Source of the DNA: a virus | IMG/VR virus record: IMGVR_UViG_3300005965_000002 | Location: 186,001 to 250,000 of that record | Direction: 5' to 3' (one strand) | DNA length: 64,000 nucleotides | In this document: positions 17,271-37,300 of the stretch, one piece after another | How the letters are laid out: each line of letters starts with the position of its first letter | How positions within the stretch are numbered: position 1 is the first letter of the stretch | Position numbers and translations under genes: made by a program | The notes under the pieces: model-generated | Seen by the model: only the letters and a program-made list of their open reading frames with translations | Database searches by the model: none | What the model was told of the DNA's origin: nothing

Positions 17271-20200
17271 CTATAGCTGCTCCTATTATTGAGTACCCTA
17301 TGACCGATTGGACTGGCAGCGGTACTGATAAATATTACACATCTGAATTGATACAGATAATATCGGGCACTGTTCCTGTGACTACTGCTGACGTTCAGGA
17401 ACTAGGCTCTATAATTACTGTAGAGTTTAGGTACAGAATTACCTCAGGCGGCACTACTTCGCCTTATTCTAACTTTAGCAATGCTGGAATCACAGTAGGT
17501 AGCACTCTTAGCACGGCTACTGAAATTCCCTGGTCGCTAAACACAGAAGGTATAGTTAGCTTCGATGTTGATGATACTATAGAGTTTGAATTAAAAACAG
17601 TAAAAAGAATTTCAAACAATCAGGGTGCTGGTTATGTATCCGAAGAGAGCTCCCTATCAAAGGTAACAGTAGGGATTATTGCAGAAGATAAAATCACGGC
17701 TTCTGTCATAGAACCTACTGGAACCAGATTAGAGCGTGCTAGGGATTACATAAAGGTATTTGTCCCGGTTAATTCTTTAAAGACAAACAGAGACAATGAT
17801 CTTGTAGGCGTAAACTTTTACATTTCATTAGATGCCGGTGGTGGAGTAAACGGTTACCAAAAGATAAATCAATCCTATATTGTTGAAGCAGATGTGTCGG
17901 AAACAGAATCGGAAGTATTACAGGTTTCATCAACGGAAGATACTACTAATAACCTGACGGTTACAACTACAAAAACCCGTCAGGTGCAAAGAGAGTACGT
18001 AACTTACACTATCAATTCAACAGTATTGAATAGACTTGTATCCGAGAATAAAATTAGGAATGTATTTTTGGATAACGATGCTACTTTAAACCCGGACATA
18101 GTTTATTATTTTGTAACCACTGCTCTTTCCTTTGATAAGTCATTAAAGCAGGTCGTCGAGAGTAATTACTCGGTTGAACTTGAGGGTGAATTCCTGGAAT
18201 ATGCTACAGATTTTCAAAGCATACCGGGTAGAAATAATTCGGATATAATTTTTTCTGTAACAAAAACTCTTACTACTGATAATAATACTGTTAATGTAAT
18301 AGGCGGTTCTGTTGTAAGAGACATATTAGATCCCGTAGCATTAGAATTTTCTAAGTATTACATAATTCAGGATTTTATATTCAAGACGCTATCAGTGGAT
18401 ACGCTTATAGATTTTGACGACGCCGATGGAGATGGTGTCAGTGATCCCATCGAAACTAATATAGATAAGCGAAACTTAGCCGACGCTCTCGGGATTAGGG
18501 ATGGGGCAAATTTACAGTTAATTATAAATGAACAGTTCGATAAAAGAGCTGCAAACTGCAATATCACACGACGAGATCCGATACAGGCTACAGGTAAAGT
18601 AACTTTTTTTGTATCGAATGCCCCGACAAATGATATAATCATTCCAGCAGGTACTCAGGTAAGCACAGCGGCTGACCCGACTACGGGCTCAACATCCGTG
18701 GCTTTTACTGTAGTAGGGACAAAATTAATTGATTCTTCAAATCCTGACTTTTACTATAATCCTACTTTAAGAAGATACGAAATTGAGGCTGACGTAAGGG
18801 CTGTGCTCGGCGGGTCTCAAGGTAATGTACCAGCTGGGTCTATAGAAAGAGCTACTGGATTACCTAGTAATATCCAGGTAACTAATACTAATCCCACTAA
18901 CTACGGCGCTAATAGAGAAACTAATAGAGAGTTGTCCGAAAGAATAAAGCTAGCTATAGCTGGTGTGGATTCAGGTACAGAGGGTGGCTACAAGAAAACG
19001 AGCGAAAGCGTTCCCGGGGTACAGCAGGCCCGAGTAGAAAAAGCTGGTGATGAATTAATGGTTAGAGATTTGGATATCTCCAGCAGAAGACATTTGGGCG
19101 GTAAAGTAGACATATACATTAAAGGCGAGAGAAGACGCCAATACATTGATCAGGTAGCCTTTAAATTTGAGTACCCCACCGACACATTCGGTAAGCTCAG
19201 CGGGGAGAGATTTTACGTAATTAATGCTAATGAATTTAGAATCCAAACCCGGAATACAAAAGTTACGGCCACTAATCCTATTATTTCGGTTTCTAATGTT
19301 AGAAATGTAACTAGAGGATCAGATTATGATATAAGCGGGTACCGTATTATAGGGGATGGGGATACCGTAATTTTAGAAAATAATCAGACCAATAATAGAA
19401 TAGGTATGGCTACATTAGATGTGATAGAGGTAAACTACAGCTATCGAAGCTCTAATGTAATTACTCTGGAACATCAACCCGTAAATACTATTATTTCTGT
19501 AACTGATTCAGATGGTAATCTGGTAGATGAAGCAGAATATAGGTTAGTGAGACTGGAAGATCCGCTGCTAACGGGGGAGTCCTCTATTTCTAAATATGGT
19601 ATAGAATTCTTATTCGACTCTCAAAATGACGTAAATGAATTTAGACAGATAGATGATGAGCAACATGACATGTTTCTCGATATACCGATATCTTTGTCTT
19701 TAAAGGGTGTAGATATTGATTCCATTACGGTTTTGAACGCGGATGACGAATCCATAGTCTATAAAAAAGATATAGACTATGAGGTTACCGGAGGGACGCA
19801 GGTCATACCAACACAATTATCCCTGCTGCCTAATAGTGCGATTAGGCAAGGACAAAGAATCTCTGTATCTTATAGAGCAAATGAAAATTTTGAGGTCACA
19901 TACCAAGCCAACTCATTGGTTGAGCAAGCTCAAGAAGAAGTAGAAAAGTTAAAGCACGCAGATGCCGATGTTGTTGTTAAACAAGGGATAGGAAATAGAG
20001 TCGATATCAGCGCCCGTGTTATAAAAGATGGAAGGTTAGATAGTAGGTATTTAGAATCTGATCGAACTGTTTTAAAATCTAGAATACAAACAGCCGTAGC
20101 TAACTATGTACAAAAGCTCAGGATGGGGGAAACCTTTACTCAGGCCTCACTGGTAAATGTTATCCGTAGCGTACCTGGGGTAAAAGATATAAAATTGCCC

Positions 20201-20665
20201 TTAATACGAATGATGAAACGTAACGGGTCTTTTATTCCTCTCGATGATTTAGGGAATCTTTCATTTGAAGTTTTCCAGAAAACTAGCAGCAGTGGGGTGC
20301 CCTCGTATAGGACACTTGATAGTGTTCTTACTTACCGGACTTCAGAAAACGGCGGGCCTGATCACCTTTTCCGTACCGTTTACGAGGATAATATCAGCTT
20401 AATGCTTGTAGATGACCCGACTGAGGTATCGCATGGTCCTGGTAGAGCTTATATACAGTCTGATGGTAGGATCATAGTCAGTACAAAAGACGGGGCCCCT
20501 CCACAAAGTAAATACTATAAAGCTGCCTATTACGTTTTATACCCAAATGATGTTAATGTAGCTGAGGATATAGAAACCACGGAAATTGAATACCTAGTGG
20601 TGGACTCAGCTAGTTTAAAAGATTTAGAAATTATAACTGAGCAAGTTACCAGAAGAGGATTATAA
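17267..20665 (+). CDS. Baseplate J-like wedge protein (T4 gp6-like)
   Basis: The 1132-aa product contains the baseplate J/gp47 core found in T4 gp6, P2 gpJ and pyocin wedges. Around residue 450 an IIIPAGTQVST motif is followed by a strand-rich region, then AVLGGSQGNVPAGSI (about 510-525), then the helical ETNRELSERIKLAI and GTEGGYKKTSESVPGVQQAR. A C-terminal J segment near 890-985 has VVVKQGIGNRVDISARV, an R-x-x-I-Q-T-A-V-A-N-Y helix and ASLVNVIRSVPGVKDI. Between them lies a phage-specific insertion. The N-terminal 330 residues are extra and beta-rich, probably fibre- or neighbour-binding. This protein would form the ring joining the central hub to peripheral fibres. The assignment is strong on motifs. 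Confidence 0.8.
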   Translation: MTIAAPIIEYPMTDWTGSGTDKYYTSELIQIISGTVPVTTADVQELGSIITVEFRYRITSGGTTSPYSNFSNAGITVGSTLSTATEIPWSLNTEGIVSFDVDDTIEFELKTVKRISNNQGAGYVSEESSLSKVTVGIIAEDKITASVIEPTGTRLERARDYIKVFVPVNSLKTNRDNDLVGVNFYISLDAGGGVNGYQKINQSYIVEADVSETESEVLQVSSTEDTTNNLTVTTTKTRQVQREYVTYTINSTVLNRLVSENKIRNVFLDNDATLNPDIVYYFVTTALSFDKSLKQVVESNYSVELEGEFLEYATDFQSIPGRNNSDIIFSVTKTLTTDNNTVNVIGGSVVRDILDPVALEFSKYYIIQDFIFKTLSVDTLIDFDDADGDGVSDPIETNIDKRNLADALGIRDGANLQLIINEQFDKRAANCNITRRDPIQATGKVTFFVSNAPTNDIIIPAGTQVSTAADPTTGSTSVAFTVVGTKLIDSSNPDFYYNPTLRRYEIEADVRAVLGGSQGNVPAGSIERATGLPSNIQVTNTNPTNYGANRETNRELSERIKLAIAGVDSGTEGGYKKTSESVPGVQQARVEKAGDELMVRDLDISSRRHLGGKVDIYIKGERRRQYIDQVAFKFEYPTDTFGKLSGERFYVINANEFRIQTRNTKVTATNPIISVSNVRNVTRGSDYDISGYRIIGDGDTVILENNQTNNRIGMATLDVIEVNYSYRSSNVITLEHQPVNTIISVTDSDGNLVDEAEYRLVRLEDPLLTGESSISKYGIEFLFDSQNDVNEFRQIDDEQHDMFLDIPISLSLKGVDIDSITVLNADDESIVYKKDIDYEVTGGTQVIPTQLSLLPNSAIRQGQRISVSYRANENFEVTYQANSLVEQAQEEVEKLKHADADVVVKQGIGNRVDISARVIKDGRLDSRYLESDRTVLKSRIQTAVANYVQKLRMGETFTQASLVNVIRSVPGVKDIKLPLIRMMKRNGSFIPLDDLGNLSFEVFQKTSSSGVPSYRTLDSVLTYRTSENGGPDHLFRTVYEDNISLMLVDDPTEVSHGPGRAYIQSDGRIIVSTKDGAPPQSKYYKAAYYVLYPNDVNVAEDIETTEIEYLVVDSASLKDLEIITEQVTRRGL

Positions 20666-20667
20666 AG

Positions 20668-23600
20668 ATGGCCACAAACCTCGGTGATGATGTTTTTAGC
20701 GTATATGACGGACTTTCTTATGCCTATGATAAGGTATTCTTCCAACCCGGAAAGCCTCCTCTTGCTGCAGAGCTTAATGATGCCCAGCAGTTTGTTGAAC
20801 TACTTTCACAAAAGAGCACGGGGCACTTACCCTCTGGGTGGTTAACCAGTAGGTCTCACTATACTTCTTCTGAATTAGTGAATAAGTTTTACACTCAGAA
20901 CCCAAAAGGAGCCAAACCAGAGGTAGCTTTGGTAAACGGTTGGCCAATCTATGTAACCAACACGGATACTGAACTAAAGCACGTAAACTCTATAGATTTT
21001 AATGATTTTGAGTTACGCTCAGGTACGCGAGTAGACGGAGTTTTCCTTGAAGTATGGAGAAAGAAAATAGCTCCTAATAGAGATGATATGGATGCTTCGT
21101 CAGCTAAGCCTCAGCCCATACGTATCACCAACGATATTAATAGTGTTGATATGCTTGATAACAATATTGGATGGGCTGTCGGGGATAATGGAGTCATTTT
21201 AAAGACTACAGATGGCGGTAACAATTGGGTTTCTAAAGAGGCTCCTGTTTCTGTAAGTTGGAAGGCTGTCAAATTTCTAAACAGCTCTATTGGGTTTGCC
21301 GTGGGTTCTGGCGGATACATCATTAAGAGCTTAAACGGCGGACAAACCTGGTTTACGGTAGATACCGACATAAACGATACGTTGAACGATATAGTGATTT
21401 TAGATTCTAAAAATGTGGTGGCAGTTGGTAATAACGGCACGGTTCTATTAGCATCCGATGGTTTAACTTTTAATGTGATTACTCAGACTTCAGGGGTCAC
21501 GGAAGATTTTAACGGTGTATTTTTCTTTGATACATCTGTGGGGTGGGTCGTAGGAAATAATGGCACACTTCTTATTTCTTTAGATGGCGGTAGATCCTGG
21601 ACTAAACAAACCATTACTGATTCAGATACAAATGCTAAGATTGAGAAAAATCTAAATTCTGTTGGTTTTTATAATTTAAATGATGGGATTATAGTAGGTG
21701 ATGATGGCCTAATCCTAAAGAGCACAGATGGTGGGTATAACTGGGCTAACGTGAGCGGCAGAATATGGACAGGATCCGAATATAAGTCCCTAGTTCAGAT
21801 AGACCCACGAAAAGAGAACCATCTAAATAAAGTGTTTATTAGCAGAAACTTTCCGTTAAATTTTACCATTTCAGTTTATTCTTCATCTAAGAATTTTTTC
21901 ACTGGTGCCACATATAAGATATCTCCTGCAAGTAGTCCGAATTCGTTAGTGCTTGAGTGGAGAGGTGTGCAGGACGGAAAGTCTTACTCAAAGGTATTAG
22001 ACCTTGAGGTATACGCATCATCAGAAGAACTGAGAGATGCTATCAATAATATAACAAGTCCTTATTTAGCATCAGATGTGGGTTTACCCTATGACGATAG
22101 AAGAAAAACAAGAGTTTTCGAGTCTATCGTAAACTTCGCCCCCATTGCTTCTCCGTCAAATATTAACCCTATATCTGGAACGATACCTTCCAGGACAACT
22201 ACTAATATCAACTTTTCTATTGAGGATAGAGCATGGATAGCCGGTAATGACGGCACCGTACTGACCACGGTTAATAGCGGTTCTAGGTGGCAAATATCAG
22301 ATACCGGTAAGGGTATAGACTTTTATGGTATAGAATTCATAGACGAGAATTTAGGTTGGGTGGTAGGTGCCGAGGGTTTTATCCTAAAGTATGACCCGGA
22401 AAACCAGACTAACAATTATGAAGAGCAGACTACGGATTTAAGTGTGGAGACTACAGAGAGAATATATCCGGAGGGAAATATCTTATCAGACGCCGAAGAT
22501 TTCCTTGAGGATTTAATGGTCGATCCTAATGTGGGTGTTGAAACCTCCAGGAGAGTCCAAATTCAGTACCGTATTCGGATAGTGGATGGAGTGGATCCTT
22601 TTAATTATCCTGAGGCAGGGTTAGGTGCTCAGTACGTATACAGCCAAGGGCCTAACAATAATGCATCGGATGCGGGTAGCTACACGTTTAAGAATATGGG
22701 CAGTGAGAATGGAGACTACGGGCTTTGGAGAGCTCGGTGCAGGAACACCTTTGATGGGTTTACTTGGGCTGTCCCAATGTTTTTTGTGTCAAGAAGGAAT
22801 TCGTCCCCTTTTAATATAGAGTCTAATATTAATGGTTCTACCTATTTTGAATTAGGAGCTGTCCGCCCGGATGGTCTAACATATGAAGAGATTGTAGATA
22901 CTGATATTGTAGATCTTAGAAGAAAGTTAAATATCAATTCCTATAGTCATTTGCTTGAGCAAAATTTGGACTCTCTGCTAAGCAATAATCTTAGGACAAA
23001 GCTCGATAATAGAGATAACCGTGGTACTCAATTTAGCACAAGTATAATGGGGGTTGACTCTTATGAGGGAATTTCTTCCATTGGAAATTTAGCTACAGGA
23101 GGAGTTTCTTCAACAGCGGTTGTTCGAGAAGATGTTAAGCAATTGAATCCTACAATAGCATTGACCGAAACAGAGCTCACTTTTGGACCCCGCGAAAAGG
23201 CTCTGTATCATAACGACTTGGCTTTTTATAGCGCTGTCGTCGTACGTGATGGTGAAGTTACTACTGAGCCTGTGGAAGGTACCTGGGAGGGTTTGGGTAC
23301 AAATACGGTAACTTTTGTTTTGAGTGATGCTAATGTTGCAGAAAACAACATCGAATATAGATTTACAGCCAGCTACATAGACTACTCAGGTACAGGTTTA
23401 TCCAAGGTCCCCCACAAGCCTTTAGGTATTCTCTACGTACCGGATGCCACGGGCAACTCCAGATTTTATCGAGGTATAAATACTCGTGACGTGTCCCAGA
23501 CCATTGAGACTTTAGCGGAAAGAGTAACCGGGTATCCTGATTATACCGTGGCCTATTCCGGTAGGACCATTTTGGATAATAAAGAATCCAGAGATCTGTA

Positions 23601-25143
23601 TAAGTTAGCCGTAACCTCGGATGAGGGTAGTACTTCTTATAACAGATCAGTACGTACCTTTAAAGGACAACAATTTAGAGGGTCATTGGTAGAATACCAT
23701 TATTTCTATCGGACAAGTGCTCCCACCAGAACTTTGGAAATACCGAAAAACGTAAACAATTATAGTGTGTTTTCTGTTCGTCAGGTAAAAGGAGTAAATG
23801 GATCCCTTTATAAGATTTCTAATAGTTATGCTAAGGGGGAAACACTTAGAGACTGGAAAATTAATGATCTGAATCAGTCGGTGAATAGCAATATTATTAT
23901 TTATCTTGATGAGTCATTCACTATACCTGCTGATACTGTGGTAGAAGTGATAATGGAAGTTAATACGGCACCATCCTCTTTATACTCTGATTTAGGTATC
24001 ACAGTTACCAATGAGGGTGATAATCAGGGAAGTTTACGTGCTCCGTATATCGCAAACTATAATGTAGGATCAAAAGGCATAGGCGGACTATACAGCTCCA
24101 TCCTATTTCCAGTTTTTATCAATGATCAGCAGAATTATATAGAGGTCGATTTAAATAATCAAAAAAAAATAAATCAAGATGAGCCCTATACGGGGTTTCC
24201 GGCTTTTTCTGGTATGGGAGAATTAGAAGATGGGTCAATTCTTGGTGTAAGCACAATTCAAACCGATGACAGCAACCATCAGCTCTATGTTTGGTACCAG
24301 GAGAATACCGGAAAAAAACAATTTTCTGCTTTACCCATTTCAAGCATTACAGGTACAACGGACGACCCGGATAATACCGGACTAGGAACATCAATAATCA
24401 GGCTGAATATAGACCCTAGAGTTACCCTCAGCCAGAAGCTGGTGTACGTGCCTATGCTCGTTAAGCAGACTACTCTACCTAATTTAGGAGATACTAGCGT
24501 AGCATACGCTACATATTATTACAGGCCCTATCAAACATTGAATACATTACCGGAGTCACTATCTGTAGAAATAATGAAGTCTTTTGAGAATGTTTACGTA
24601 TCTAACCTCGGAACTGGCGGTACTCCAATAATTAGAGGGGAGCCGTACCAGAACCCTATTGAGCATATTCCTGTGAATGACCCTGGATTTCTGAATGAGA
24701 ACATATTTTCAAATGTTGATGATTTAGATTTTATTAATTATAGTATTGATTCAGGGTTTGTTAAACTGCCCGCTATAATCTCCAGGACATTGGGAAAAAC
24801 AATTACTCTATCAAATCCTAATAATGTGGGGGATAGCCTGGGTAGGGCTTTCTACTCAGAGTGCTCCGAAAATTTCAGGGTACAGGCTGAGGATTTAACT
24901 ATTGCTACTCCAAGAAAAGTTTTTATACCAATGATCGCCAGAATAAGGTCAGCCGTAACAGAGCCTTTTGTTAGGGGAGAGCTGGTGCTGTTGGTAGTCT
25001 CAAAGGTGTATAAAGCTAGAATCGAAAACTCTACTGGTTTTTATGAGGACGAGAATGAGGAATACCAGCCCGGTTACATAGAGGAAGCTGATACTGCAGT
25101 AGGTGTATACCGCCTGGCAAATAAACCCATTGTTCGGATGTAA
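20668..25143 (+). CDS. Tail protein with inserted seven-blade YCF48-type propeller
   Basis: A 1491-aa protein, three bases after the wedge gene. Residues 1-136 and from about 598 onward match the 1189-aa protein at 50642: shared phrases are FFQ/VFQ, LPSGWL/YPSGWL, VNGWPI, VFLEVWRK, VETSRRVQIQYRIR, VPMFFVSRR and DIVDLRR. Between them sits an insert of about 460 residues made of seven G-(W/F)-x-V-G-x-x-G-x-(I/L)-(L/I)-x(S/T)-x-x-G-G-x-x-W units, the signature of YCF48/BNR-like beta-propeller blades. Five blades span about 155-366 and two more about 533-585. A separate beta module with an L-R-D-A-I-N-N motif is lodged between blades 5 and 6. A receptor- or glycan-binding tail component is inferred. 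Confidence 0.72.
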   Translation: MATNLGDDVFSVYDGLSYAYDKVFFQPGKPPLAAELNDAQQFVELLSQKSTGHLPSGWLTSRSHYTSSELVNKFYTQNPKGAKPEVALVNGWPIYVTNTDTELKHVNSIDFNDFELRSGTRVDGVFLEVWRKKIAPNRDDMDASSAKPQPIRITNDINSVDMLDNNIGWAVGDNGVILKTTDGGNNWVSKEAPVSVSWKAVKFLNSSIGFAVGSGGYIIKSLNGGQTWFTVDTDINDTLNDIVILDSKNVVAVGNNGTVLLASDGLTFNVITQTSGVTEDFNGVFFFDTSVGWVVGNNGTLLISLDGGRSWTKQTITDSDTNAKIEKNLNSVGFYNLNDGIIVGDDGLILKSTDGGYNWANVSGRIWTGSEYKSLVQIDPRKENHLNKVFISRNFPLNFTISVYSSSKNFFTGATYKISPASSPNSLVLEWRGVQDGKSYSKVLDLEVYASSEELRDAINNITSPYLASDVGLPYDDRRKTRVFESIVNFAPIASPSNINPISGTIPSRTTTNINFSIEDRAWIAGNDGTVLTTVNSGSRWQISDTGKGIDFYGIEFIDENLGWVVGAEGFILKYDPENQTNNYEEQTTDLSVETTERIYPEGNILSDAEDFLEDLMVDPNVGVETSRRVQIQYRIRIVDGVDPFNYPEAGLGAQYVYSQGPNNNASDAGSYTFKNMGSENGDYGLWRARCRNTFDGFTWAVPMFFVSRRNSSPFNIESNINGSTYFELGAVRPDGLTYEEIVDTDIVDLRRKLNINSYSHLLEQNLDSLLSNNLRTKLDNRDNRGTQFSTSIMGVDSYEGISSIGNLATGGVSSTAVVREDVKQLNPTIALTETELTFGPREKALYHNDLAFYSAVVVRDGEVTTEPVEGTWEGLGTNTVTFVLSDANVAENNIEYRFTASYIDYSGTGLSKVPHKPLGILYVPDATGNSRFYRGINTRDVSQTIETLAERVTGYPDYTVAYSGRTILDNKESRDLYKLAVTSDEGSTSYNRSVRTFKGQQFRGSLVEYHYFYRTSAPTRTLEIPKNVNNYSVFSVRQVKGVNGSLYKISNSYAKGETLRDWKINDLNQSVNSNIIIYLDESFTIPADTVVEVIMEVNTAPSSLYSDLGITVTNEGDNQGSLRAPYIANYNVGSKGIGGLYSSILFPVFINDQQNYIEVDLNNQKKINQDEPYTGFPAFSGMGELEDGSILGVSTIQTDDSNHQLYVWYQENTGKKQFSALPISSITGTTDDPDNTGLGTSIIRLNIDPRVTLSQKLVYVPMLVKQTTLPNLGDTSVAYATYYYRPYQTLNTLPESLSVEIMKSFENVYVSNLGTGGTPIIRGEPYQNPIEHIPVNDPGFLNENIFSNVDDLDFINYSIDSGFVKLPAIISRTLGKTITLSNPNNVGDSLGRAFYSECSENFRVQAEDLTIATPRKVFIPMIARIRSAVTEPFVRGELVLLVVSKVYKARIENSTGFYEDENEEYQPGYIEEADTAVGVYRLANKPIVRM

Positions 25144-25146
25144 TAC

Positions 25147-26223
25147 ATGGAAATTCGTTTAGGAAAAAACAATGTCATTAGAAGAGTTAAGGATGGACAA
25201 GGCAATACTAAGTACATCGTTAACTTAGGTACTATCATATATAACAATGTATTTAAGACATTAGATAACCTTGAAATTCCTATTTTTAATGAATCCATAT
25301 TTAGATTGCCTGATGATGCCAATAAGTACGCTGCTGTAAACGCTTACTATAATGTAGAGCAAGGCAGGTTCATATTTAAGACAGTCAAGAAGTCTATCTC
25401 AAATATCGGCTCTGTTAAGTCTGATGTAGTATATAATTCACTTCCTATCTGCCAGTTCATTTTAAGGCAAGTAGACCCTACTTTTGAAGTTATTCAAGTC
25501 TATGAGTATTCACAAGCTGCTACTTTTAGTATCTCAGATTCTCTAGAAAAAGGAGAAAAGGGGCTGCAGGGTCCTTTAGGGCAGACAGGAGCTCAAGGAG
25601 AAACAGGAGCTTTAGGCATAACAGGAGCTTTAGGAGAAATAGGATATACGGGTATACAAGGACCTACAGGCGTAGGTGAGACAGGGTATCACGGCCCGCA
25701 AGGAGAAACAGGGTGGTATCCCGATCTTGATTTAACTTTTCACTTAAAATTTAAGAGTGCAGATACGGTGCAGGTCGATTACTCCGTTTATGAAAAAGAT
25801 TTTCAATGGATTTCTAGTGGTGCCTCCTATTTTTCTACAGAGACAGGAATAATTGATAATGCCCATTTTGCTCAGTACGTCGGTGGGACTTCTAGATATT
25901 TAAGAAATGAATACATTGGTATCGGTAAGTCAGGTATAGGTTCAACCGGTTCTTTTTCTATGTGGTTCCGTCTTGACGTTCCGCCAATTCCTTCTTTTAC
26001 GTATAGCATAGATTCACAAGTATCTACGAAGGTACGGTTTCAGGATACTTCTGAGAATTATCCGTCGAACTGGTTCTGGGAATTTGGTGGAATAAATAAG
26101 ACCAGCACCGGTACAGATATCCCTGTCATTGATTTTGAATCCTCAGGATCATATGAGGTTTCATTGACGGCTACTAACAATTATGGATCTAATAAAGTTA
26201 CTCAAATTGTAGTGGTTCCATAA
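25147..26223 (+). CDS. Collagen-like tail fibre protein with half LamG and PKD domain
   Basis: A 358-aa protein. Residues 1-137 form a beta-rich attachment domain. Residues 138-194 are Gly-X-Y collagen-like repeats with Q-G-E-T-G type triplets, expected to make a trimeric rod. Residues about 195-278 resemble the first half of a LamG/concanavalin-type domain (DLTFHLKFKS, later GSFSMWFRLDVP). That domain stops abruptly and is replaced by one PKD-like domain (about 280-358; VRFQDTS, NWFWEFGG, SYEVSLTATN). The complementary second half of the LamG fold appears at the end of the protein ending at 29753. The stop overlaps the next start as TAATG. Receptor-binding fibre is the likely role. Confidence 0.7.
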   Translation: MEIRLGKNNVIRRVKDGQGNTKYIVNLGTIIYNNVFKTLDNLEIPIFNESIFRLPDDANKYAAVNAYYNVEQGRFIFKTVKKSISNIGSVKSDVVYNSLPICQFILRQVDPTFEVIQVYEYSQAATFSISDSLEKGEKGLQGPLGQTGAQGETGALGITGALGEIGYTGIQGPTGVGETGYHGPQGETGWYPDLDLTFHLKFKSADTVQVDYSVYEKDFQWISSGASYFSTETGIIDNAHFAQYVGGTSRYLRNEYIGIGKSGIGSTGSFSMWFRLDVPPIPSFTYSIDSQVSTKVRFQDTSENYPSNWFWEFGGINKTSTGTDIPVIDFESSGSYEVSLTATNNYGSNKVTQIVVVP

Positions 26224-26744
26224 TGGATAGAATATTAGCAATGATTCCGTTAAAAGATGGGCACGCCTTTAAGTCTGAGGTTTTAAGGGGCTTGTGCAAG
26301 CAAACAGTGCCTGTTGATATAATGGCTGTTTCTAGACCTAAAAGCGAAAGGCATCGTAATATTCCTGCGGGATATATATCGATGTCAGAATGTAGAAATA
26401 TAGCAAAAGAAGAGGGTTTGGAGCAATACAATTCTGAATATTTTCTTTTGCTCAATAGAGACGTGGTATTAAAAAGAGACACAGATATTGAGGATATGAT
26501 AAATTTTCTTCAGTTTAATAGAGATTTTGGAGCTGTAGCTATAAATACTAGAAAAAAAGAAATCCGATTATTGGTTGATAATACTCATACAGATATAGCA
26601 TGCATGGTAATAAGAAGAAGTATATTGGAGAAGATTACTTTTCATAATGAAAAACATTGTAATTGCAGATGCGTGTGTGGCTATATAAGATCTAACGGTT
26701 TGAGTGTGGGCTACATAGACCATAGAAAATGTCCGGAGATTTAA
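26223..26744 (+). CDS. Small glycosyltransferase-like protein (GT-A fold candidate)
   Basis: A 173-aa protein whose layout follows a minimal family 2 glycosyltransferase: an N-terminal strand-helix pair (ILAMIPLKD, VLRGLCKQTVPVDIMAVSRP), an S-x-x-x-x-R-N-I-A-x-x-x-G helix, YFLLLNRDVVL at the place of the usual D-x-D strand (here N-R-D), then IACMVIRRSILEKITF and a C-terminal G-Y-I-R-x-x-G-L-x-V-G-Y segment. Five Cys in the last 40 residues (HCNCRCVCG and KCPEI) could bind metal. The canonical D-x-D is incomplete, so activity is uncertain. It is wedged between two fibre genes with zero spacing, so a role in glycosylating or assembling fibres is plausible. It may also be an inactive relic. Confidence 0.5.
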   Translation: MDRILAMIPLKDGHAFKSEVLRGLCKQTVPVDIMAVSRPKSERHRNIPAGYISMSECRNIAKEEGLEQYNSEYFLLLNRDVVLKRDTDIEDMINFLQFNRDFGAVAINTRKKEIRLLVDNTHTDIACMVIRRSILEKITFHNEKHCNCRCVCGYIRSNGLSVGYIDHRKCPEI

Positions 26745-29700
26745 ATGCTAGATTCTGTTTATTTTGTAGACCTATCAGCTACGGGTACTAGCCACGCAGG
26801 TACACCAAAAGATCCTTTTTCTTATGAGGATTTTTCTAATATTGTTGGGCCTTCAACTGATGATGAGCTTTTCTATTTTAAGGGCCAATATACTATTACA
26901 TCTGCATCACCAGCATTTAATACGGGTGGCGGTAATAAAAGAATAATAGCATGGGACTTAGAAGAGTTTGGTCCTTGGAGATTAAAGGTAGAAGACTTTT
27001 CTAAATTTTCATTAGGATCTACTTTTATCATAGAAGATGGTATCCTTTTAATAGATGACACAGGGGATATATCTTTTGACTTATTTCAACTAGAAAACGT
27101 CTATTTATATAGAAAAACATCTACAATTACAGACAAATTTATATTGGGAGGCTCGGCTGCTTCTAATATCTATATGTCCACAGTACAGATAGATGGAATT
27201 TTAGAGTACGACACCGGATCCATAACTACTAGTTGTCTTAAGGTAGAGAACGGTATATCAATTCCTTCTACAGCATCCACCGCAGCACTAACCTATTCTA
27301 CTTACAACGGAGATTCTACTGCAGTTACTCCTGATCCTGGATTCTCAGGGTATTTTAACTTTGCGAACAACCAGGATTTATTTGATTTTACGGGAATTAC
27401 GGACATAAATGATGACCCGCAGTTCCCTTCCGGGATTACTGTATCCGACCCTTTTAATGACCCCATTACCTTCTTTTTTGACGGTAATCCCAAAGTTAGA
27501 TCCCAGGGTGCCTTTTATAGCAATGGGGCTAATCCAATAGTTTATGTAGATTTGAATAGTGGTGTCCCCGCTGGTAGTGGGACTTCCGGATCCCCCTATA
27601 ATTTTACTCAATTTTATTCTGACCTGGATACCCGGTCATATGACACGGGTACGATTATTAAGCTTAAAGGGATGGCACAAACTACTAATTATATTTCTAT
27701 AGGCCAAAGATCGTTTGAGGGACATCTACTATTAGAAAGGTGGGAGAGTAGTATCCCCTGGGGAATTCATACTACGGATGGTATATCAAATAGAGGTATA
27801 TCAAGAGGCGGAATATTTAAAACTGATGCCGATTTTATTAATACATTGGATTTGTCGAATACCTACTTAGAGGCAAATAGAGTAATACTGTATTCTACTG
27901 ATAGAGGTGCTAAGATTAAAGGATCTACAGTGATAAGTTCTGGCACCCCAACAAGGATAGGTGACTGCTACACTCCCGAGATATACCTATTTGTCGATTC
28001 TAATTACATAGATTCCGGGGTAGCGGATGTCGGGTCAGATGTTTTTGTGTGGTATTTTGGGTTGTCCACAGCGTTTAGCCAAGCCTCTAATTCCGAATCT
28101 GACTTTTTTGATCCTTCTGAGGGTATTATTAAGACCTTTCAATTAGATGATTGCGTTTTTGGTGTCACTCCCTCAGTGGTTTCTTTTTCTACTACTTTCG
28201 ATGAAAATAATTACTTATACCCTTCCGATATATATAATAGCATCACTACTACCTCTTCAGATTATAGCACGAAATCAGGTTACTCTACTGGTATCTCAGG
28301 CAATCCCAGATACGGGGTGGGTGCCTACTATTTTCCGGAGGTGGTAGCTTCCTTTACAGCGTCCCCTACTTCAGGCGGTATACCGTTAGAAGTGAATTTT
28401 AATAATGACTCTACAGGTATTATAACTGAATACTCATGGGATTTTGGAGATGGTACTACTTCTACAGAAGAAAACCCTGTAAAGACTTATACCAGTGCGG
28501 GTACTTATACGGTTACGTTGACAGTTACTGGGTTAGAAGGGATTACTGATACTTTTACTAGAACTGATTATATTATAGCAGTTGATTCACTCACAGCTGG
28601 GTTTTCAGGATCACCTTTATCTGGATCAGAGCCCCTCACTGTTAATTTTACGGATAGCTCAATCGGTGACATAAGTTATCGTATATGGAATTTTGGTGAT
28701 GGTACGGCTTTAGAAGATGTAACCGATCCATCTCATACTTATAGTAATCCAGGAACATATACCGTCTCTCTTACAGTGCGTGATGCAGATTCTAATGAAG
28801 ATACAGAAACTAAAACAGATTATGTAGAAGTATCCTCTGGACCTTTAACTGCTAATTTCACGGGTACCCCACAATCTGGAGAAAAACCACTTACTGTTAA
28901 TTTTACAGATAATTCTGCGGGCAGTATTACATACAGATTGTGGGATTTTGGAGATGGGAATACGCAAGAAAACGTTACTGACCCATCTCATACTTATAGC
29001 GACTCCGGCGTTTACACAGTTTCTTTAACTATTAGAGATGCATCTCTCAATCAAGATATAAAAACAAGAACCGAGTATATAACAGTTACAGAGCCGCCTC
29101 TAAATGCTGATTTTTCTGCTAGTCCTGTTTTTGGCACTGAGCCTTTATCAGTATCTTTTACAGATAGCTCTACAGGGGATATATCTTATAGGCTATGGAC
29201 CTTTGGTGACGGGACTTCTGAAGAAGATACCGTAAACCCCTCCCATACATATACCAGCCCTGGTTTATACACAGTCAGCCTGTTGGTGAGGGATCCTTCA
29301 TTAGAAGAAGATTTAGAGACAAAGGTTAACTACGTAACTGTAGGTGAAGATTTTATAGTAGCCGACAAGGTTTTGATGGAATCCAGTAATGCTTCTACAG
29401 GGGATTATTGGAAGATATACATAGATGACCAGAAAAGATTTGTTTTTGAGACCAATGTATATATATGGAGAACTGTAGATCCTCAAGCTGAGATTAAAAA
29501 ATGGACGTTTATCCAATTTTTACCGCATAAAGATACCATGTACGTTGGGAAATACAGCTCTGGTTGGAAAAAAGTAGATCTTGTTAAATTCATTAACGGG
29601 TCTCCGGATACTCCAACCAGCACCAGAACGTATGTCGTTCCGAATTCTACATTTAAGATAGACGACATTCAAATATGGGATAAAGAAGTAAACAAAAAAA

Positions 29701-29753
29701 CCCATTTTCAGCAAAATAGGGGTAAAGCGGGATTACTGGATAATCGATCCTAA
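26745..29753 (+). CDS. Fibre protein: beta-helix modules, four PKD domains, second half of LamG
   Basis: A 1002-aa protein beginning at the base after the previous stop. Residues 1-530 contain two modules that open with a Y-(F/V)-V-D-L strand and continue into solenoid-like short strands; the first has the W-D-L-x-x-(F/Y)-G-P-W-R-L signature. Residues about 533-870 are four tandem PKD domains with classic WDFGDGT/WNFGDGT cores and HTY-x-x-x-G-x-Y-T-V-S-L ends; PKD 2, 3 and 4 are close to one another. Residues 871-1002 look like the second half of a LamG-like lectin fold (KKWTFIQFLPHKDTMYVGK, FKIDDIQIWDKEV), with no first half in this protein. Likely an extended receptor-binding or decorating fibre. 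Confidence 0.7.
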   Translation: MLDSVYFVDLSATGTSHAGTPKDPFSYEDFSNIVGPSTDDELFYFKGQYTITSASPAFNTGGGNKRIIAWDLEEFGPWRLKVEDFSKFSLGSTFIIEDGILLIDDTGDISFDLFQLENVYLYRKTSTITDKFILGGSAASNIYMSTVQIDGILEYDTGSITTSCLKVENGISIPSTASTAALTYSTYNGDSTAVTPDPGFSGYFNFANNQDLFDFTGITDINDDPQFPSGITVSDPFNDPITFFFDGNPKVRSQGAFYSNGANPIVYVDLNSGVPAGSGTSGSPYNFTQFYSDLDTRSYDTGTIIKLKGMAQTTNYISIGQRSFEGHLLLERWESSIPWGIHTTDGISNRGISRGGIFKTDADFINTLDLSNTYLEANRVILYSTDRGAKIKGSTVISSGTPTRIGDCYTPEIYLFVDSNYIDSGVADVGSDVFVWYFGLSTAFSQASNSESDFFDPSEGIIKTFQLDDCVFGVTPSVVSFSTTFDENNYLYPSDIYNSITTTSSDYSTKSGYSTGISGNPRYGVGAYYFPEVVASFTASPTSGGIPLEVNFNNDSTGIITEYSWDFGDGTTSTEENPVKTYTSAGTYTVTLTVTGLEGITDTFTRTDYIIAVDSLTAGFSGSPLSGSEPLTVNFTDSSIGDISYRIWNFGDGTALEDVTDPSHTYSNPGTYTVSLTVRDADSNEDTETKTDYVEVSSGPLTANFTGTPQSGEKPLTVNFTDNSAGSITYRLWDFGDGNTQENVTDPSHTYSDSGVYTVSLTIRDASLNQDIKTRTEYITVTEPPLNADFSASPVFGTEPLSVSFTDSSTGDISYRLWTFGDGTSEEDTVNPSHTYTSPGLYTVSLLVRDPSLEEDLETKVNYVTVGEDFIVADKVLMESSNASTGDYWKIYIDDQKRFVFETNVYIWRTVDPQAEIKKWTFIQFLPHKDTMYVGKYSSGWKKVDLVKFINGSPDTPTSTRTYVVPNSTFKIDDIQIWDKEVNKKTHFQQNRGKAGLLDNRS
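28340..29355 (+). repeat. Four tandem PKD-domain repeats
   Basis: Four consecutive units of roughly 250 bases encode PKD folds within the 1002-aa fibre protein. Units 2-4 share near-identical phrases (DISYR or SITYR before W, then FGDG, then DPSHTY or NPSHTY, then YTVSL). This indicates recent duplication, and recombination between units is likely. Confidence 0.75.
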
Positions 29754-29817: not shown

Positions 29818-30288
29818 ATGAGTTTAGATGCGGCTTTTACAGTAAATTCAAATGTAGGCGCGGCTCCTTTTAGTGTAACTTTTTCATCTACACTTTTAGA
29901 GGGCACAGCTTCTTCCTATTTGTGGGATTTTGGGGATGGCACCACTAGTACTCAAGCATCTCCTACACATACTTACAATAACTTAGGCTTATATACTGTT
30001 AAGCTTACAGTTTCTAATAGTAGTACTTCAGAGTCTATTACCCTCACAAAAAATAAGCATATAATTGTTGTAGCTGTAGATTTTGAAGCTATCCCTGTAC
30101 AGGGATATGCTCCGTTGTCGGTAAAATTCACCGACAAAAGCACAGCTCCTACGGGTTTTTCTATTGCTTCAAGATCCTGGAGCTTTGGAGATGGGTCTAG
30201 TGCGGTCACATCTCAAAACCCTGTCCATTCGTACTCGCAACCGGGTACATATGCTGTTGATCTACAGCTTACGGTAAAGAGGACATAA
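29818..30288 (+). CDS. Small double-PKD protein
   Basis: A 156-aa protein consisting of almost nothing but two PKD domains (about 3-83 and 84-156), with cores YLWDFGDGTTST and RSWSFGDGSS and ends GLYTVKLTVSN and GTYAVDLQLTV. AGGG precedes the ATG and a candidate promoter motif lies upstream. PKD folds are Ig-like protein- or sugar-binding modules common on bacterial surface proteins. As a free-standing gene it could be a virion decoration protein. It could also be a remnant of a longer fibre gene, since its neighbours carry the same domains attached to beta-helices. No signal peptide is visible. Confidence 0.65.
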   Translation: MSLDAAFTVNSNVGAAPFSVTFSSTLLEGTASSYLWDFGDGTTSTQASPTHTYNNLGLYTVKLTVSNSSTSESITLTKNKHIIVVAVDFEAIPVQGYAPLSVKFTDKSTAPTGFSIASRSWSFGDGSSAVTSQNPVHSYSQPGTYAVDLQLTVKRT

Positions 30289-30289
30289 A

Positions 30290-33200
30290 ATGAGCATCGT
30301 TTATGTATATAAGAAGGCTACTGGGGCTAATAACGGTACTAGTTGGACAGACGCTTATACCGAACTTTATACAGCGGTTAATAATGCCTCTGCGGGGGAT
30401 GAGCTTTGGGTAGCGCAAAGCAACGGTTTCCTTGAGTGGTACCATCCGGGACCTGGTGTTTCTCCTAGCACTGAAGTAATAACAGTAAATAAGCCTTTAA
30501 CCATCTACGGTGGGATGCCCGTAGGTAGCACTTCTATTAGTGAAAGAACTTTCGATAAAAAAAGTATACTTAACGGGCAAAGTAACTCTTTTCATTCCCT
30601 ATTAAAGCTCGAAATTAGTACAGGCGAGTTTATATTAGATAATTTTGACATAGTGAATTTTGGTACTACGTCATCATACCCCATTATAGTGGACGGTACT
30701 GGCCCGGAAATAACACAGGTTAAGTTTAAAAATTGTTTATTTGAAGGTAATGTGTCTTCTGTAGCTTGTGTATATGAATTAGCTTCAAATAATTCTGTTT
30801 TGGCTATAGAAAATTGTTATTTCACCAGGAATGAAGGCAAACTTTCTTCCTGTATTTCTAAAAATAGTATCTTAGCACTTTATGTAAATAATTCAGCATT
30901 TTTTAATAATAAGGCTGATTCTACGACAACTACACAGTCGGGAGCAATCTATTCTATATATGAGACAACGATAGACAACTGCGTTTTTAAAGAAAATGAA
31001 GGTGATCTCGCAGGAGCAGTTTATATAGTTAATTACGGGGCTTATACAATAGATATAAATCATTGTGTTTTTTACAAAAATAAATCAACTGCAAATCCTG
31101 CCCTATATGGAAGTGGGGGGGCTCTTCGTATAGCAACTAAAAGTGATGAAAGCGTAAAGAACTCTATCTTTTGGGAAAATGAGAGCACGTTATCTTCAAA
31201 CGGTAACCAGATATATGTAATAAATACAAGTTCTACAACTGTATCCTTTGAAGTGCAGCATTGTTGTATTCAGGACGGTATCTCGACAGGAGCAGTACTA
31301 ACAGAGAATAGTCCAGGAAACATAGTTGTTTCAGATGACGGCACGCTAGTCATAACTGACCCACTATTTAGAGAACCTTCTTTATTTGGGTTTGATGCTC
31401 ATTCTTTTCTTTGTGAAGGCCAAGCTTTAGACGGTTTAGATATAGGTATTGTAGGAAACGATGTATCGGATTTTGAGTTTTTTCCCACTTCTGGATTTTC
31501 GCCTCTATCTACTACAGCCGTTTCGACCGGTAGGTATAAATGGGGTTATGAATTTGATTTCTTATGGGAAATAGATGGGGTTTCAAAAACAGATCCGCTT
31601 CCCACATATAACCTTGAAGAAGCAAAATATTATAATGTTTCCTTACATACTAAGGTAGTAGAATTTTCAGTTTATTTATGTGGCTTTTCCTCTGCCTATA
31701 AATATGAGGATTCCTCGATAAAATTATCCTATTTAAATGTAGAAACTAATATTAATCCCTCTTTTACTGTAACTCCTATAGAGGGTGATGTACCATTAAA
31801 TGTAAAATTTACTGACACCACTACGGGTACAATTACTTCTTGGCTGTGGTCTTTCGGAGATGATGGGACGGATACCGATCAAAATCCTGATCGTACTTTT
31901 GCAGCAAATGGTCTCTATGATGTAGAATTAACGGTTACCGGTCCTGAGGGTAGTTTTTCTACTAATCTATTCGAGCAAACAGGAGAAGACTATATTAATG
32001 TAAGACCTGTAGCGGATTTCAACCTAAGTTCTTCTATTATATCTATTGGTGACACTGTTAATTTTACTGATCAGTCATTAGTGACCATATGCGGATGGGT
32101 TTGGTCGTGGTATAAAAAAGGGAGCTCGCCTGAGGACGGGGAAATATTTTATTCTACAGAACCGGAAGCTTTAAACTGGCCCTATGAAGATCCTTCCCTA
32201 ACTTTTTCAAGTCCTACGTTCTCTCCCGGGGAGACATATGTAGTTTCGTTAAAGGTTTATAGTCCTTATGAAGGGACTGTTATCGATGATGAAGCGAATA
32301 TTAGCAATAATACAACCACTAAAGAAGTGACTATACTTGCTGAAGTTTCCGCTAATTTTACTTTTACTCCTAATACAGGCCAGCAGCCATTAACTGTAAA
32401 TTTTGAGGATACCTCTACCGGAGGTGCAGATGCTTGGAGTTGGGATTTTGGTGACGGGGACACATCTACCAGTCAGGATCCTAGTCATACCTATACCGAA
32501 AATGGTTCCTATACTGTTACACTTACGGCTACACGTACTAGCCCGGCTTCTACCGATACTATTACTAAAACTGTAAATGTTTCCCCTAGGGCTGAATTTG
32601 AAGCTAGCCCAGTTTCAGGATACACCCCGCTAACCGTGCAGTTTACTGATAAGTCGGTGACTACAGTAACTAACTGGCAGTGGTATTTTGGAGATGGTAC
32701 CTCAAGTAGTTCTCAGAACCCCACAAAGACTTACAACCAAACTGGGACTTATACTGTTGAACTCATAGTTACAGGTCCTGGGGGGTCAGGATCAGCTACT
32801 AAAACAGATTACATTACTGCTGACTTCCCGGGAGATGCATACTATGTAGACTTAAACAAAACAGCTTCTGGGGCAGGCACGGAGACCGACCCTTTTAATT
32901 ATGAAGATTTTAGTAGTAGAACAACAAGCGCTGATAACTCCTTGGAGTATAAAATTAGAGGTTCATTAAATCTACAACAAGGTGTTCATTCTTCTTCTAC
33001 AATTGGAGAATCGAATATAGTAATGACGCCTTGGGATTTAGATAGGTATGGTCCTTGGCGATTACATGTGTCTTCATCAAACTTTGATAATCTAAATATA
33101 TCAGCAAAGAAAATTTCTGGTGCTATCCTAGCTACTGATTTAGATATTTCGTCTGGGGATCCCGTAAGATTCAATTTATACCTATGTGGATCCACTATAG

Positions 33201-34297
33201 AAAACACTCATATAGTTTCACATGATAGATTATTTTTTACACTTTACGGGGATGCGTACATATGTGGTAGTAATATAGTCGGGCCCAGTGGGAATAAAAC
33301 TCTTCTCGATATAAATAGCGAAGAGGATTCTGATCCTGTTCAATTTTCTATTAAAGACTCTATTATAGATTTTAAGGATTTAGGAGTAACGGGAGATAGC
33401 GCTAAGCTAGAGGGGTCCATCCTGAGGACAAGCAACACATCTTTTAACTATGGTGGAATAAATAGAATTGGGGATTTACATGGTATCACGGGTATTCATG
33501 TGGATCCACAATTTGATTTTGATATACCAGAGGCGTGGCCTGATTGGAACGCTGGAGCTAATGCCTCTACTAGCCCAGATGACTCAACAAAGTGGGCAAG
33601 GTGGTCTACCTGGGGTAAATTAGTACGGGTAGGCAGCAGTGAGTATACGGAGATACCCACGGGTTTATTTGAGAATGATAGGCTAGGTATAGGTGCTCTA
33701 TATTTTGATACTAACCCAACATTTACGGTTAACTATACAGAAGGTAACCTTGTTAGTGTACTGGATAGACCAGAAAAAACTTGTAATCAATTTATAGCGA
33801 TAGGGTGGGTAAAAAACCCATCTGTTTCTGACGGCAAAATTATTTATCCTATAGCTGTGTCAGATATGTACGGGAATGTCCTTGGAGATGATGTTGCTTC
33901 TTTTAAAATAGGAATAAAAAGGGAAGACGAGGACTATCGTCTTGTTTATTCCGGAGCGCAGTCTTTGCTAATAAATAGATCTAATAGAATAGATTTAGCT
34001 GATAATAAATGGCATTTTTTGAGCTATGTTTGTGTTAATGATGAAGGGTTAATGAAGTTCTATGTCGATGGTATTGAGGTTCCTTCTGATACGGATACGG
34101 ATGATGAGGGTTTTACAAAGAATATAGCCAGGTCTAAATTTGTGCGCATAGGAGGAGGGGATGTCTATAGCCCCTACCTTACTCAAGAGAGTTCTGCTAT
34201 ATCGCTGTATAATTGGAGAGTAGGATTTAATTTTACCATTCATCAAGAATGGCTAAAAGAGTTAATGGAAATAGATAAAACAAACTTGGGTATATAA
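30290..34297 (+). CDS. Fibre/adhesin protein: beta-helix, PKD array, intact LamG domain
   Basis: A 1335-aa protein. Residues 1-390 begin with IVYVYKKATGANNGTSWTDA, shared with the N-terminus of the 2062-aa neighbour, and continue as a right-handed beta-helix with N-C-x-F turns like those of polymorphic surface proteins. Residues about 394-845 hold five PKD-like domains: the first is degenerate, the third is expanded and lacks the GDG core, and the last two are canonical (WDFGDGDTST, WYFGDGTSSS). Residues about 848-1130 carry one Y-Y-V-D-L module with YGPWRL. Residues about 1140-1335 form an apparently complete LamG-like domain (NKWHFLSYVCVNDEG, MKFYVDGIEVP, SAISLYNW). Function is inferred as host-surface binding. 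Confidence 0.68.
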   Translation: MSIVYVYKKATGANNGTSWTDAYTELYTAVNNASAGDELWVAQSNGFLEWYHPGPGVSPSTEVITVNKPLTIYGGMPVGSTSISERTFDKKSILNGQSNSFHSLLKLEISTGEFILDNFDIVNFGTTSSYPIIVDGTGPEITQVKFKNCLFEGNVSSVACVYELASNNSVLAIENCYFTRNEGKLSSCISKNSILALYVNNSAFFNNKADSTTTTQSGAIYSIYETTIDNCVFKENEGDLAGAVYIVNYGAYTIDINHCVFYKNKSTANPALYGSGGALRIATKSDESVKNSIFWENESTLSSNGNQIYVINTSSTTVSFEVQHCCIQDGISTGAVLTENSPGNIVVSDDGTLVITDPLFREPSLFGFDAHSFLCEGQALDGLDIGIVGNDVSDFEFFPTSGFSPLSTTAVSTGRYKWGYEFDFLWEIDGVSKTDPLPTYNLEEAKYYNVSLHTKVVEFSVYLCGFSSAYKYEDSSIKLSYLNVETNINPSFTVTPIEGDVPLNVKFTDTTTGTITSWLWSFGDDGTDTDQNPDRTFAANGLYDVELTVTGPEGSFSTNLFEQTGEDYINVRPVADFNLSSSIISIGDTVNFTDQSLVTICGWVWSWYKKGSSPEDGEIFYSTEPEALNWPYEDPSLTFSSPTFSPGETYVVSLKVYSPYEGTVIDDEANISNNTTTKEVTILAEVSANFTFTPNTGQQPLTVNFEDTSTGGADAWSWDFGDGDTSTSQDPSHTYTENGSYTVTLTATRTSPASTDTITKTVNVSPRAEFEASPVSGYTPLTVQFTDKSVTTVTNWQWYFGDGTSSSSQNPTKTYNQTGTYTVELIVTGPGGSGSATKTDYITADFPGDAYYVDLNKTASGAGTETDPFNYEDFSSRTTSADNSLEYKIRGSLNLQQGVHSSSTIGESNIVMTPWDLDRYGPWRLHVSSSNFDNLNISAKKISGAILATDLDISSGDPVRFNLYLCGSTIENTHIVSHDRLFFTLYGDAYICGSNIVGPSGNKTLLDINSEEDSDPVQFSIKDSIIDFKDLGVTGDSAKLEGSILRTSNTSFNYGGINRIGDLHGITGIHVDPQFDFDIPEAWPDWNAGANASTSPDDSTKWARWSTWGKLVRVGSSEYTEIPTGLFENDRLGIGALYFDTNPTFTVNYTEGNLVSVLDRPEKTCNQFIAIGWVKNPSVSDGKIIYPIAVSDMYGNVLGDDVASFKIGIKREDEDYRLVYSGAQSLLINRSNRIDLADNKWHFLSYVCVNDEGLMKFYVDGIEVPSDTDTDDEGFTKNIARSKFVRIGGGDVYSPYLTQESSAISLYNWRVGFNFTIHQEWLKELMEIDKTNLGI

Positions 34298-34306
34298 GAG
34301 GGCGTA

Positions 34307-37300
34307 ATGGCGATTATTTATGTAAATGAAAGCGCAAGCGGTTCAAATAATGGTACTACTTGGACTGATGCTTACACTAGCCTAGTTACAGCTTTATCCT
34401 CGGCGACTGACGGGGATGAGTTGTGGGTGGCCCAAGGTACATATTCACCAGGAGGGGCAGCGGGTGACTTTTTTGACGTTGCTGTTTCCAACCTAAGTAT
34501 ATACGGAGGGTTTCGAGGGGATGAAGTAAATAAGAATCAGAGAGATAGAACAAGATTTGAATCCATTCTCGACGGCGACGGTGTAAATGAAGCGATATTA
34601 AAAAATACAAACACAACATATCCATCCACTCTAATAATAGACAGTCTGTATTTTGAAAATTGCGCAGGTGATTTTTTCTTATCAGCTTTAGTCTTTAATT
34701 ATTCAGGAACAGACGGAGACGATAACTTAGAAGTATACAATAGCGTGTTCCGCAATAATAGCGGTTTCGACGGCGGTGCCGTTACAATTATAGGAAACGC
34801 ATTTTATTCTTATTGGAAAATAGAGAATTGTGAGTTTTATAATAACACAGCCTCACGCAATGGTGGGGCTATTTATGTGGGTGGTACATATGTTGGCGGT
34901 ACAAATATTAGGAATTGTATGTTTCATAACAATTCTGCTGTTAGAGGCGGTGCCGTTTATATTAGTACAAGACTAAATGTCTTGGAATCTTGTGCGTTCT
35001 ATAATAATACCGTGACAGAGAACGGTGGTGCTGTATACAATACGTTAACAACAGCAACCTTCAGAAACAATTCTTTCTACGGGAATACAGCGGGTATTAA
35101 CGGTGGAGCACTTTTCATAGTTAACTCAAATACAGACCCTTATAATTGTGTTTTTTATGGTAACACCGCTACTTCCTCAGGTAATGACATTTATGTAGAT
35201 CCTTTTGTTTTAGGTTCCGAAATAAACTATTGCTCTGCTACGTCTTTATCCGCACCTGATGTAGTAAATATTACAATTGGTAGTAGTAATGTAGCTGGAG
35301 ATCCAAATTTTGTCGATCCTTCTAATGGCGACTTAAGGTTAAAGTATACATCACAATGCATTGACGCTGGAGATGGAGATAACGCCACTACATACGACAT
35401 CGAAGGGAATCCAAGAGTCCAGGTAAAAACTAGTCCTGCTGGCACAGGGTCTCCCAATTATACAGATATGGGAGCCTATGAGTTTTCAGATGCTGTGAAA
35501 AGATATTACGTACAGCTTAGTAACTCATACACGTCTACAGGCCATACAGGTTCATATAATGATCCATACTCTTATGAAGATTTTGTAAGTAATATTTCCG
35601 CTGCTACAGGTAGAGCTATCTATCTTTTAAAGGGGACAAGGTCCTCATCCCTATCGGATATTACCGCTACCTCTCTTTATCAAGTAAGCCTTATCGCTTG
35701 GGACTTAAATGAGTACGGTCCCTGGAGAATACTACAGCCATCGAATGCTTTTGATGTAGATGCTTATATGCAAGATGGTATTGTAGATGCTGAGCGCATT
35801 TACTCTCTTAATGGAAGTAAGAGAATGTATATGCAGGGTAGTGCCGCGTCTACGACCGACTATATAGCGGGTACCCACGAACAAACTAATTTCGTAAATA
35901 CGGGTACGTCTAATCCGTTTACAGTAGAGACAGGAGACACAGCTACTGTCGATAGGTGCATCTTCAATGGTAATGAGGTTTTTGTAGATACCGGCGCTAC
36001 ATTTACCGTATCTAACAGTGTCAGTAATATTATTACCGGAGGAGCCTTTCTCACGGGCACAGGCACTATTAGCTCCTCTAATATGACATACGGATGGAAT
36101 CCTCCAGTTCTGCCGAGTAACACGAGTACAGATCTAACTGTATTTTCCTTAGATGGAGGTACTAGCCCAGCAACAATAAGTGATACTGCTGGGGTAGGGT
36201 ATGACGACGGATGGGCTAATGGTGAGTCTATATTTGTTAATCTATCCGTATCTTCTACAGGTAATGATGGTTACTATGGGGAAAATGCTGTAGGACTAAC
36301 CGAATTTATAGCAGCACTTTCGGATGGTCTAACATTTTATTTAAGAGGAAAAGCAAGTCTTCCAAGTTCTACGAATATCACAATAACATCAGGCACAGCA
36401 TCTTTTAAAGCCTGGAATCTTTCTAAGTATGGACCGTGGAAGTTAGAGATTAATAAGAATGCTGTAGGAGGTTTTTCCTCTGGCAGAGTCAACATGCAAG
36501 GTGGAAGTATAAGAAATAATTATTCAGGGGGAGCGGGTGACTTATTTCTTAATAACGGAGAAGATCTTTACATAGAGTCGGTTGGTAATCAATCAACTAT
36601 TTACGGTAACTTAACTAGATGTACCCTTAATTTTGATACGAGAGTACTTGTACAAAGTGACAGTAGCGCAACTTTTAATAATTGCATACTGAATAAAACA
36701 GGGTCGGCTAAGCTAGATTGTCAGAATGTAGGCGTAGACTTGATAATTAGCAATAGCATATCTGATGCGTCTAACTTCGCGGATTTGGTAGATGATAACT
36801 CAAGCGGTGGAGCCCTAGTATATGGAGAAGATAACACCTTTAACTGGACGGCTCCTACATTACCAGATTGGGATACCTCAGACTATAATGAATATCGATT
36901 AGCGGGATCGCCGTCAGCTATTTATTATGGTGTGCAGAGTTTTCTTACCACGATTTACGTAGACATAGCAAGTAGTAATGATACCTCTCTTACAGAAGGC
37001 GGTGATAGCTCATCCCCGGCATCTTACATATATTTAAATGATGTTATCTCTAGGATGCGCGGAGGGGATTTTAGGCTAAAAGGCGTGAGGGATATCACGA
37101 ATACTGCTGCCGATGAGATTTATTGGTTAAATGAGGGTATACCGTATAGAAACAACCTTTTATCTGATTGGGATAATGATACCGAAGGGCCCTGGAGATT
37201 AAGAGCCGACAAAGTTACCCTTAGTGGGGTAAACTTATTTAATGGTATCATATACTCGGATAAGCATGTTTATCTAACTGGATACACTATAGAGCCCTAT

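Follow-up and report, generated by a model that had tools for sequence, protein, structure and literature searches.

A LamG-like domain divided between two fibre genes in a clade of large phages

We found that in a clade of large phages one LamG-type lectin domain is encoded in two pieces by two separate genes of the fibre array. The N-terminal half (LamN) follows the collagen stalk of a fibre protein, A, and the C-terminal half (LamC) belongs to a second protein, B. On the evidence of sequence profiles, conservation and structural models, the halves probably complete one LamG fold in trans, where they would act as a docking joint between the fibre and an adhesin.

Results

Two genes of the fibre array carry the parts of a LamG domain

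The window, by which we mean the whole stretch of 64,000 nucleotides analysed, corresponds to bases 186001-250000 of an IMG/VR virus record of 258,580 bases. Tail genes surround the locus: a baseplate wedge gene (17267-20665; PHROG match, E=9e-22) is followed by a gene for a 1491-aa protein (20668-25143) and then by the fibre array. The three open reading frames of interest, 25147-26223 (358 aa, gene A), 26223-26744 (173 aa) and 26745-29753 (1002 aa, gene B', the window's form of gene B), lie where an earlier note on this DNA had placed them. Their parts are as follows.

25147..25542, + strand: N-terminal domain of gene A, residues 1-132; kept in all relatives by alignment, with 44% identity to L020
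25552..25713, + strand: collagen triple-helix stalk of gene A, residues 136-189 (Pfam Collagen, E=2.8e-7)
25711..25986, + strand: LamN, N-terminal half of the split LamG, residues 189-280, ending ..SMWFRLDVPP (Pfam match of the joined halves; 16 lineages)
25987..26220, + strand: PKD domain of gene A, residues 290-355 (Pfam PKD_4, E=3.4e-7); directly follows LamN in all lineages
26223..26744, + strand: glycosyltransferase-like (GT-like) gene, 173 aa, between A and B (weak Glycos_transf_2 match, E=0.0042; ortholog at the equivalent place in L230)
26745..29753, + strand: gene B', 1002 aa, with a long N-terminal head, four PKD domains and LamC (open reading frames and Pfam; ortholog in L230)
28347..29354, + strand: the four PKD domains of gene B', approximate extent (Pfam PKD_4, four stretches)
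29358..29750, + strand: LamC, C-terminal half of the split LamG, VADKVLM..KIDDIQIWDKEV.. (Pfam match of the joined halves, alignment, AlphaFold2 model of the L098 ortholog)

The N-terminal domain of A is a probable tail or baseplate attachment. Pfam placed PKD domains (PF18911 / PF00801) above the curated cut-off once in A and four times in B', and by alignment the last of the four is the counterpart of the single PKD in compact B genes. The earlier note had read the material between the halves as PKD domains, a glycosyltransferase-like gene and beta-helix modules. The PKD domains hold; the glycosyltransferase match lies below cut-off, with 17.5 bits against the 23.3 bits set for glycosyltransferase family 2 (PF00535); and Pfam reported no beta-helix family in the 1002-aa protein. 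The L230 ortholog of the GT-like gene did not match PF00535, and the gene has no relative among named phages. Small glycosyltransferase-like genes recur in the fibre array of the clade (window 26223-26744, L230:8685-9209, L115:10225-10815, L039:22905-23384), none passing the Pfam cut-off.

Two further observations concern the setting. The large tail proteins at 20668-25143 and 50642-54211, which flank the fibre array, look paralogous and have a VFLEVWRK region in common. A collagen-repeat-rich open frame of 1555 aa lies elsewhere in the source phage genome (G000:C1:146777-150274).

The halves match a LamG profile only when joined in native order

We joined nucleotides 25711-25986, which follow the collagen stalk in gene A, to nucleotides 29358-29750 at the end of gene B'. 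The joined product matched Pfam Laminin_G_3 (PF13385) with E=4.3e-5; the match takes in profile positions 16-146 of 151 and continues through the joint. Alone, the N-terminal half had no Pfam match and the C-terminal half had none to Laminin_G_3. Joined halves of relatives gave E-values of 4.7e-7 (L027), 1.1e-5 (L026), 4.5e-5 (L230), 9.6e-4 (L024), 1.4e-3 (L021), 2.1e-3 (L039) and a weak 0.038 (L223); the match was absent in six of the 14 joined lineages tested (L020, L023, L043, L098, L115 and L224). Against the curated cut-off of 27.6 bits, only L027 scored above (30.5 bits), followed by L026 (26.1) and by the window and L230 (24.1 each).

Single halves reached E=0.068 at best, and control joins, in which one half was shuffled or the order was swapped, reached 0.051. 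Four extra residues (EDFI) at the window joint abolished the match; the signal is therefore modest and dependent on the exact junction. When the joined profile was compared with eight phage LamG domains by local HHalign, the match was weak (E=0.0026, probability 12%; the halves gave 0.13 and 0.058), and we do not use it as main evidence. The Pfam comparisons confirm, at the level of sequence, that the LamG likeness of the window halves is more than chance. They bear out the earlier reading of a LamG domain divided over two genes, since the joined halves match and the single halves and controls fail.

The division is conserved in 16 lineages

Relatives were sought with an alignment of the baseplate wedge protein and two distant named relatives; the scan recovered phages about 50% identical in the wedge protein, eleven of which encode both halves. 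Scans with an alignment of B, an alignment of LamN and the N-terminal domain of A added more. The total was 20 contigs, or 16 lineages after near-identical contigs were merged: the window and its twin; L020; L021; L022/L025; L023; L024/L028; L026; L027; L039; L043; L098; L115; L127; L223; L224/L225; and L230. L028 was placed solely by tblastn coordinates that agree with L024; L127 is a short contig (WJJK01000007.1) with part of A only. That contig is filed in a Candidatus Altiarchaeales MAG, yet bears a phage fibre array. It is probably of phage origin and was grouped with the archaeon in binning; alternatively, it is a hint at the host.

Gene A consisted of the N-terminal domain, collagen, LamN and PKD in all relatives read. 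Gene B ended in PKD and LamC, except that in L223 the ORF continues past LamC into further modules. A PKD after LamN and a PKD before LamC were present without exception in the lineages read. A and B were separate ORFs in all 20 contigs (16 lineages), so that in the contigs read the Laminin_G_3 domain is not one continuous domain on one polypeptide. No ORF in the 20 contigs held both LamN and LamC, including those where B is fused downstream (L223) or long-headed (window, L230, L027, L223). In 12 of the 16 lineages A and B are direct neighbours, 2-16 nt apart and without the cassette; L127, with its part of A, likewise shows the adjacency.

At informative divergence dN/dS was about 0.06-0.27 for LamN and about 0.11-0.23 for LamC, values similar to or lower than those of the PKD domains. 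Both halves are under purifying selection. Between-lineage distances of LamN and LamC were correlated (r=0.72, Mantel p=1e-4, 14 sequences), as were those of each half with the distances of the 1491-aa protein encoded nearby (LamN, r=0.71; LamC, r=0.91); such correlation is also expected from shared inheritance and shows co-inheritance, not contact.

The last strand of LamC is predicted to form only with LamN

A and B share one frame in L098, with a single TAG between them, so that a read-through chain LamN-PKD-PKD-LamC could be folded. We ran AlphaFold2 on this artificial linkage of the two chains, with separate LamN rows and B rows in the alignment. The model had a mean pLDDT of 77 and a pTM of 0.61; most of LamC scored 90-95, LamN scored 61-92, and the first PKD was poorly modelled. 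The final LamC strand (361-368, KIDEFKIW) and the next helix were formed. B modelled without LamN kept most of LamC, but the final strand, which formed only with LamN present, was gone, and confidence at the C-terminus fell to 56-84. The first and last strands of concanavalin-like folds neighbour each other, so this loss is expected if LamN supplies the partner.

A Foldseek search of the read-through model against viral structures recovered several proteins named concanavalin A-like lectin or LamG-like jellyroll, with E down to 3.6e-6. Some of these alignments exceed the length of the target (403-418 columns, where the targets have 223-256 residues); alignment of the two halves on either side of the inserted PKD domains would produce such an excess. 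The PDB fold search returned PKD and Ig-like tandem matches and no LamG.

The PDB result and the confident prediction of most of LamC from B alone would also suit halves that fold independently. Equally, the halves might pair with other partners or with themselves by domain swapping within the A trimer, where the collagen brings three LamN together; the LamG likeness would then reflect descent only. We consider this unlikely, because each gene always occurs with its partner and in most cases next to it, the models lose the terminal strand of LamC without LamN, and LamG is recognised only for LamN plus LamC in native order.

A and B are very probably separate chains

The short gaps between A and B in 12 lineages, and the shared frame in L023 and L098, raise the question of whether frameshifting or readthrough makes one chain, with LamG formed in cis around two inserted PKD domains. 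Such fusion does not fit the relative frames, which differ among lineages (0, +1, +2), the two in-frame stops in L023, or the whole genes that intervene between A and B in the window, L230 and L027. The B genes of compact relatives, moreover, start at their own ATG. We therefore regard a single chain as very unlikely.

The window insert is a later addition to a divided domain

In the window the halves lie about 3.4 kb apart, with the 173-aa gene and an N-terminal extension of B by about 780 residues between them. The earlier note had explained the split by insertion of this material into an ancestral collagen-LamG gene. If the insertion were recent, the halves would be remnants, and the PKD domains on both sides of the insert could be taken in its favour. 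This cause of the split is contradicted by the 12 of 16 lineages that carry the halves on adjacent genes without the cassette; the split is thus independent of the 3-kb insert. Purifying selection on both halves does not fit remnants, and the insert itself is conserved in L230, where the GT-like gene has an ortholog (62% identity, 8685-9209) in the equivalent place. Searches of IMG/VR, INPHARED phages and GTDB species genomes for the unsplit collagen-LamG relative that the earlier note had suggested looking for turned up none, and no fused form is known; searches of named phages gave similarity limited to collagen or PKD. That a recent insertion divided one gene in the window phage is, in our judgement, very unlikely. 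Division of a LamG carrying two inserted PKD domains, or some other route, are candidates for the original event.

Besides the GT-like ortholog, L230 has a long B ortholog of 834 aa, which two aligned blocks of 47% and 42% identity cover, and an additional 514-aa gene at the locus. L027 has a different 139-aa gene at the A-B site, and its B bears a short, unrelated head that includes an FN3-like domain; in L223 a glycine-rich and Ig-like head unrelated to that of the window is fused to B. Across lineages the N-terminal extension of B ranges from none to about 780 residues, with LamC strictly retained. The window insert is a later elongation by a small GT-like gene and a long head on the N-terminus of B, and the A-B junction and B N-terminus are a site of repeated elongation.

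An assembly error or contig chimera, a concern for any IMG/VR metagenomic contig, has a negligible chance of explaining the arrangement, since these 24.5 kb are present, with a single difference, in another IMG/VR contig (3300025377_000091), so that the arrangement is not private to one assembly, and 15 further lineages, known from other contigs, have the architecture too.

Other genes of the fibre array

Many fibre genes of the clade end in a GFxRxxGPxxIFD-type motif after very different N-terminal parts. The motif is seen in the window gene at 34307-40495 (GFKRSNGPSHIYD) and in fibre genes of L021, L023, L025, L026, L027, L039, L098 and L223; it looks like a common C-terminal anchor. That window gene, of 2062 aa, matches compact genes of 159-160 aa (L026:21659-22138, L027:21798-22280) at the C-terminus only, which again may reflect growth N-terminal to a conserved C-terminus. 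The window gene at 29818-30288 (156 aa, two PKD domains), together with the LamG-like C-terminus of the 1335-aa gene at 30290-34297, has as its counterpart a single gene of about 355 aa in each of three relatives (L023:19729-20793, L026:20595-21650, L027:20709-21785), so that a second large insertion or rearrangement lies beside the first. In L026 a papain-family cysteine protease gene (19684-20586; Peptidase_C1, E=1.8e-16) lies directly after gene B in the fibre array.

Discussion

Our data suggest that A and B are two structural proteins which share one LamG/concanavalin-like fold. A would comprise the conserved N-terminal domain, collagen stalk, LamN and PKD, and B a variable head where present, then PKD and LamC. 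The separately translated chains would be mutually complementary, with the final LamC strand (KIDEL/FKIW) dependent on the LamN sheet, so that LamN and LamC would assemble in trans into a single LamG domain whose break is bordered on both sides by a PKD. The collagen fibre would thus bear a socket and the C-terminal side of B a plug, and the joint would dock B, with a large adhesive N-terminal head in some phages, onto the fibre. A docking role fits the strict retention of LamC in B while the N-terminus of B varies. We infer the assembly in trans, the use as a docking joint, the stoichiometry and the location on the tail. The earlier note had suggested that the divided domain might still assemble in trans; purifying selection indicates that the halves are maintained, and the LamN-dependent terminal strand in the models that they are probably complementary.

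LamG3 and other concanavalin-fold lectins have been reported on jumbo phage tail fibres (PMC7824862), and the present domain resembles these in fold family, by the joined profile and the viral fold search, and in fibre/adhesin class. The known cases are one continuous domain, whereas here the domain is shared between two genes, and a PKD flanks the break on either side. Chaperone-usher pili use donor-strand or fold complementation between subunits. In both systems secondary structure of one protein would complete the beta-sandwich of another; in the phages, however, about 40% of the domain (90-130 of about 230 residues) would be supplied rather than one strand, both parts are remnants of one domain, and no chaperone was seen. 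Split inteins are naturally split domains encoded by two genes that assemble non-covalently. There too each gene encodes part of one fold, but no splicing motif or catalytic role is indicated here and the two halves would yield a structural joint. Modular phage receptor-binding proteins have a conserved N-terminal anchor and a variable C-terminal tip. A conserved anchor and exchangeable heads are common to both, with the polarity reversed in B, whose heads vary N-terminally and whose conserved anchor is C-terminal. Full-text searches of the literature outside subscription journals returned no account of a phage LamG domain divided in this way.

Single-gene domain searches miss domains spread across neighbouring genes. 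If our reading is true, the halves would be a ready pair for fold-complementation tests or a protein-joining tool, and the phages would hold a natural split lectin domain that has persisted while the genes around it diverged deeply, to about 45-50% identity; for a single fold this would be unusual. We lean, by a small degree, towards the view that a naturally split lectin fold serves these large phages as a non-covalent plug-and-socket, with one half held by the fibre and the other by the C-terminus of exchangeable adhesins. If so, heads could be swapped or enlarged without changing the fibre.
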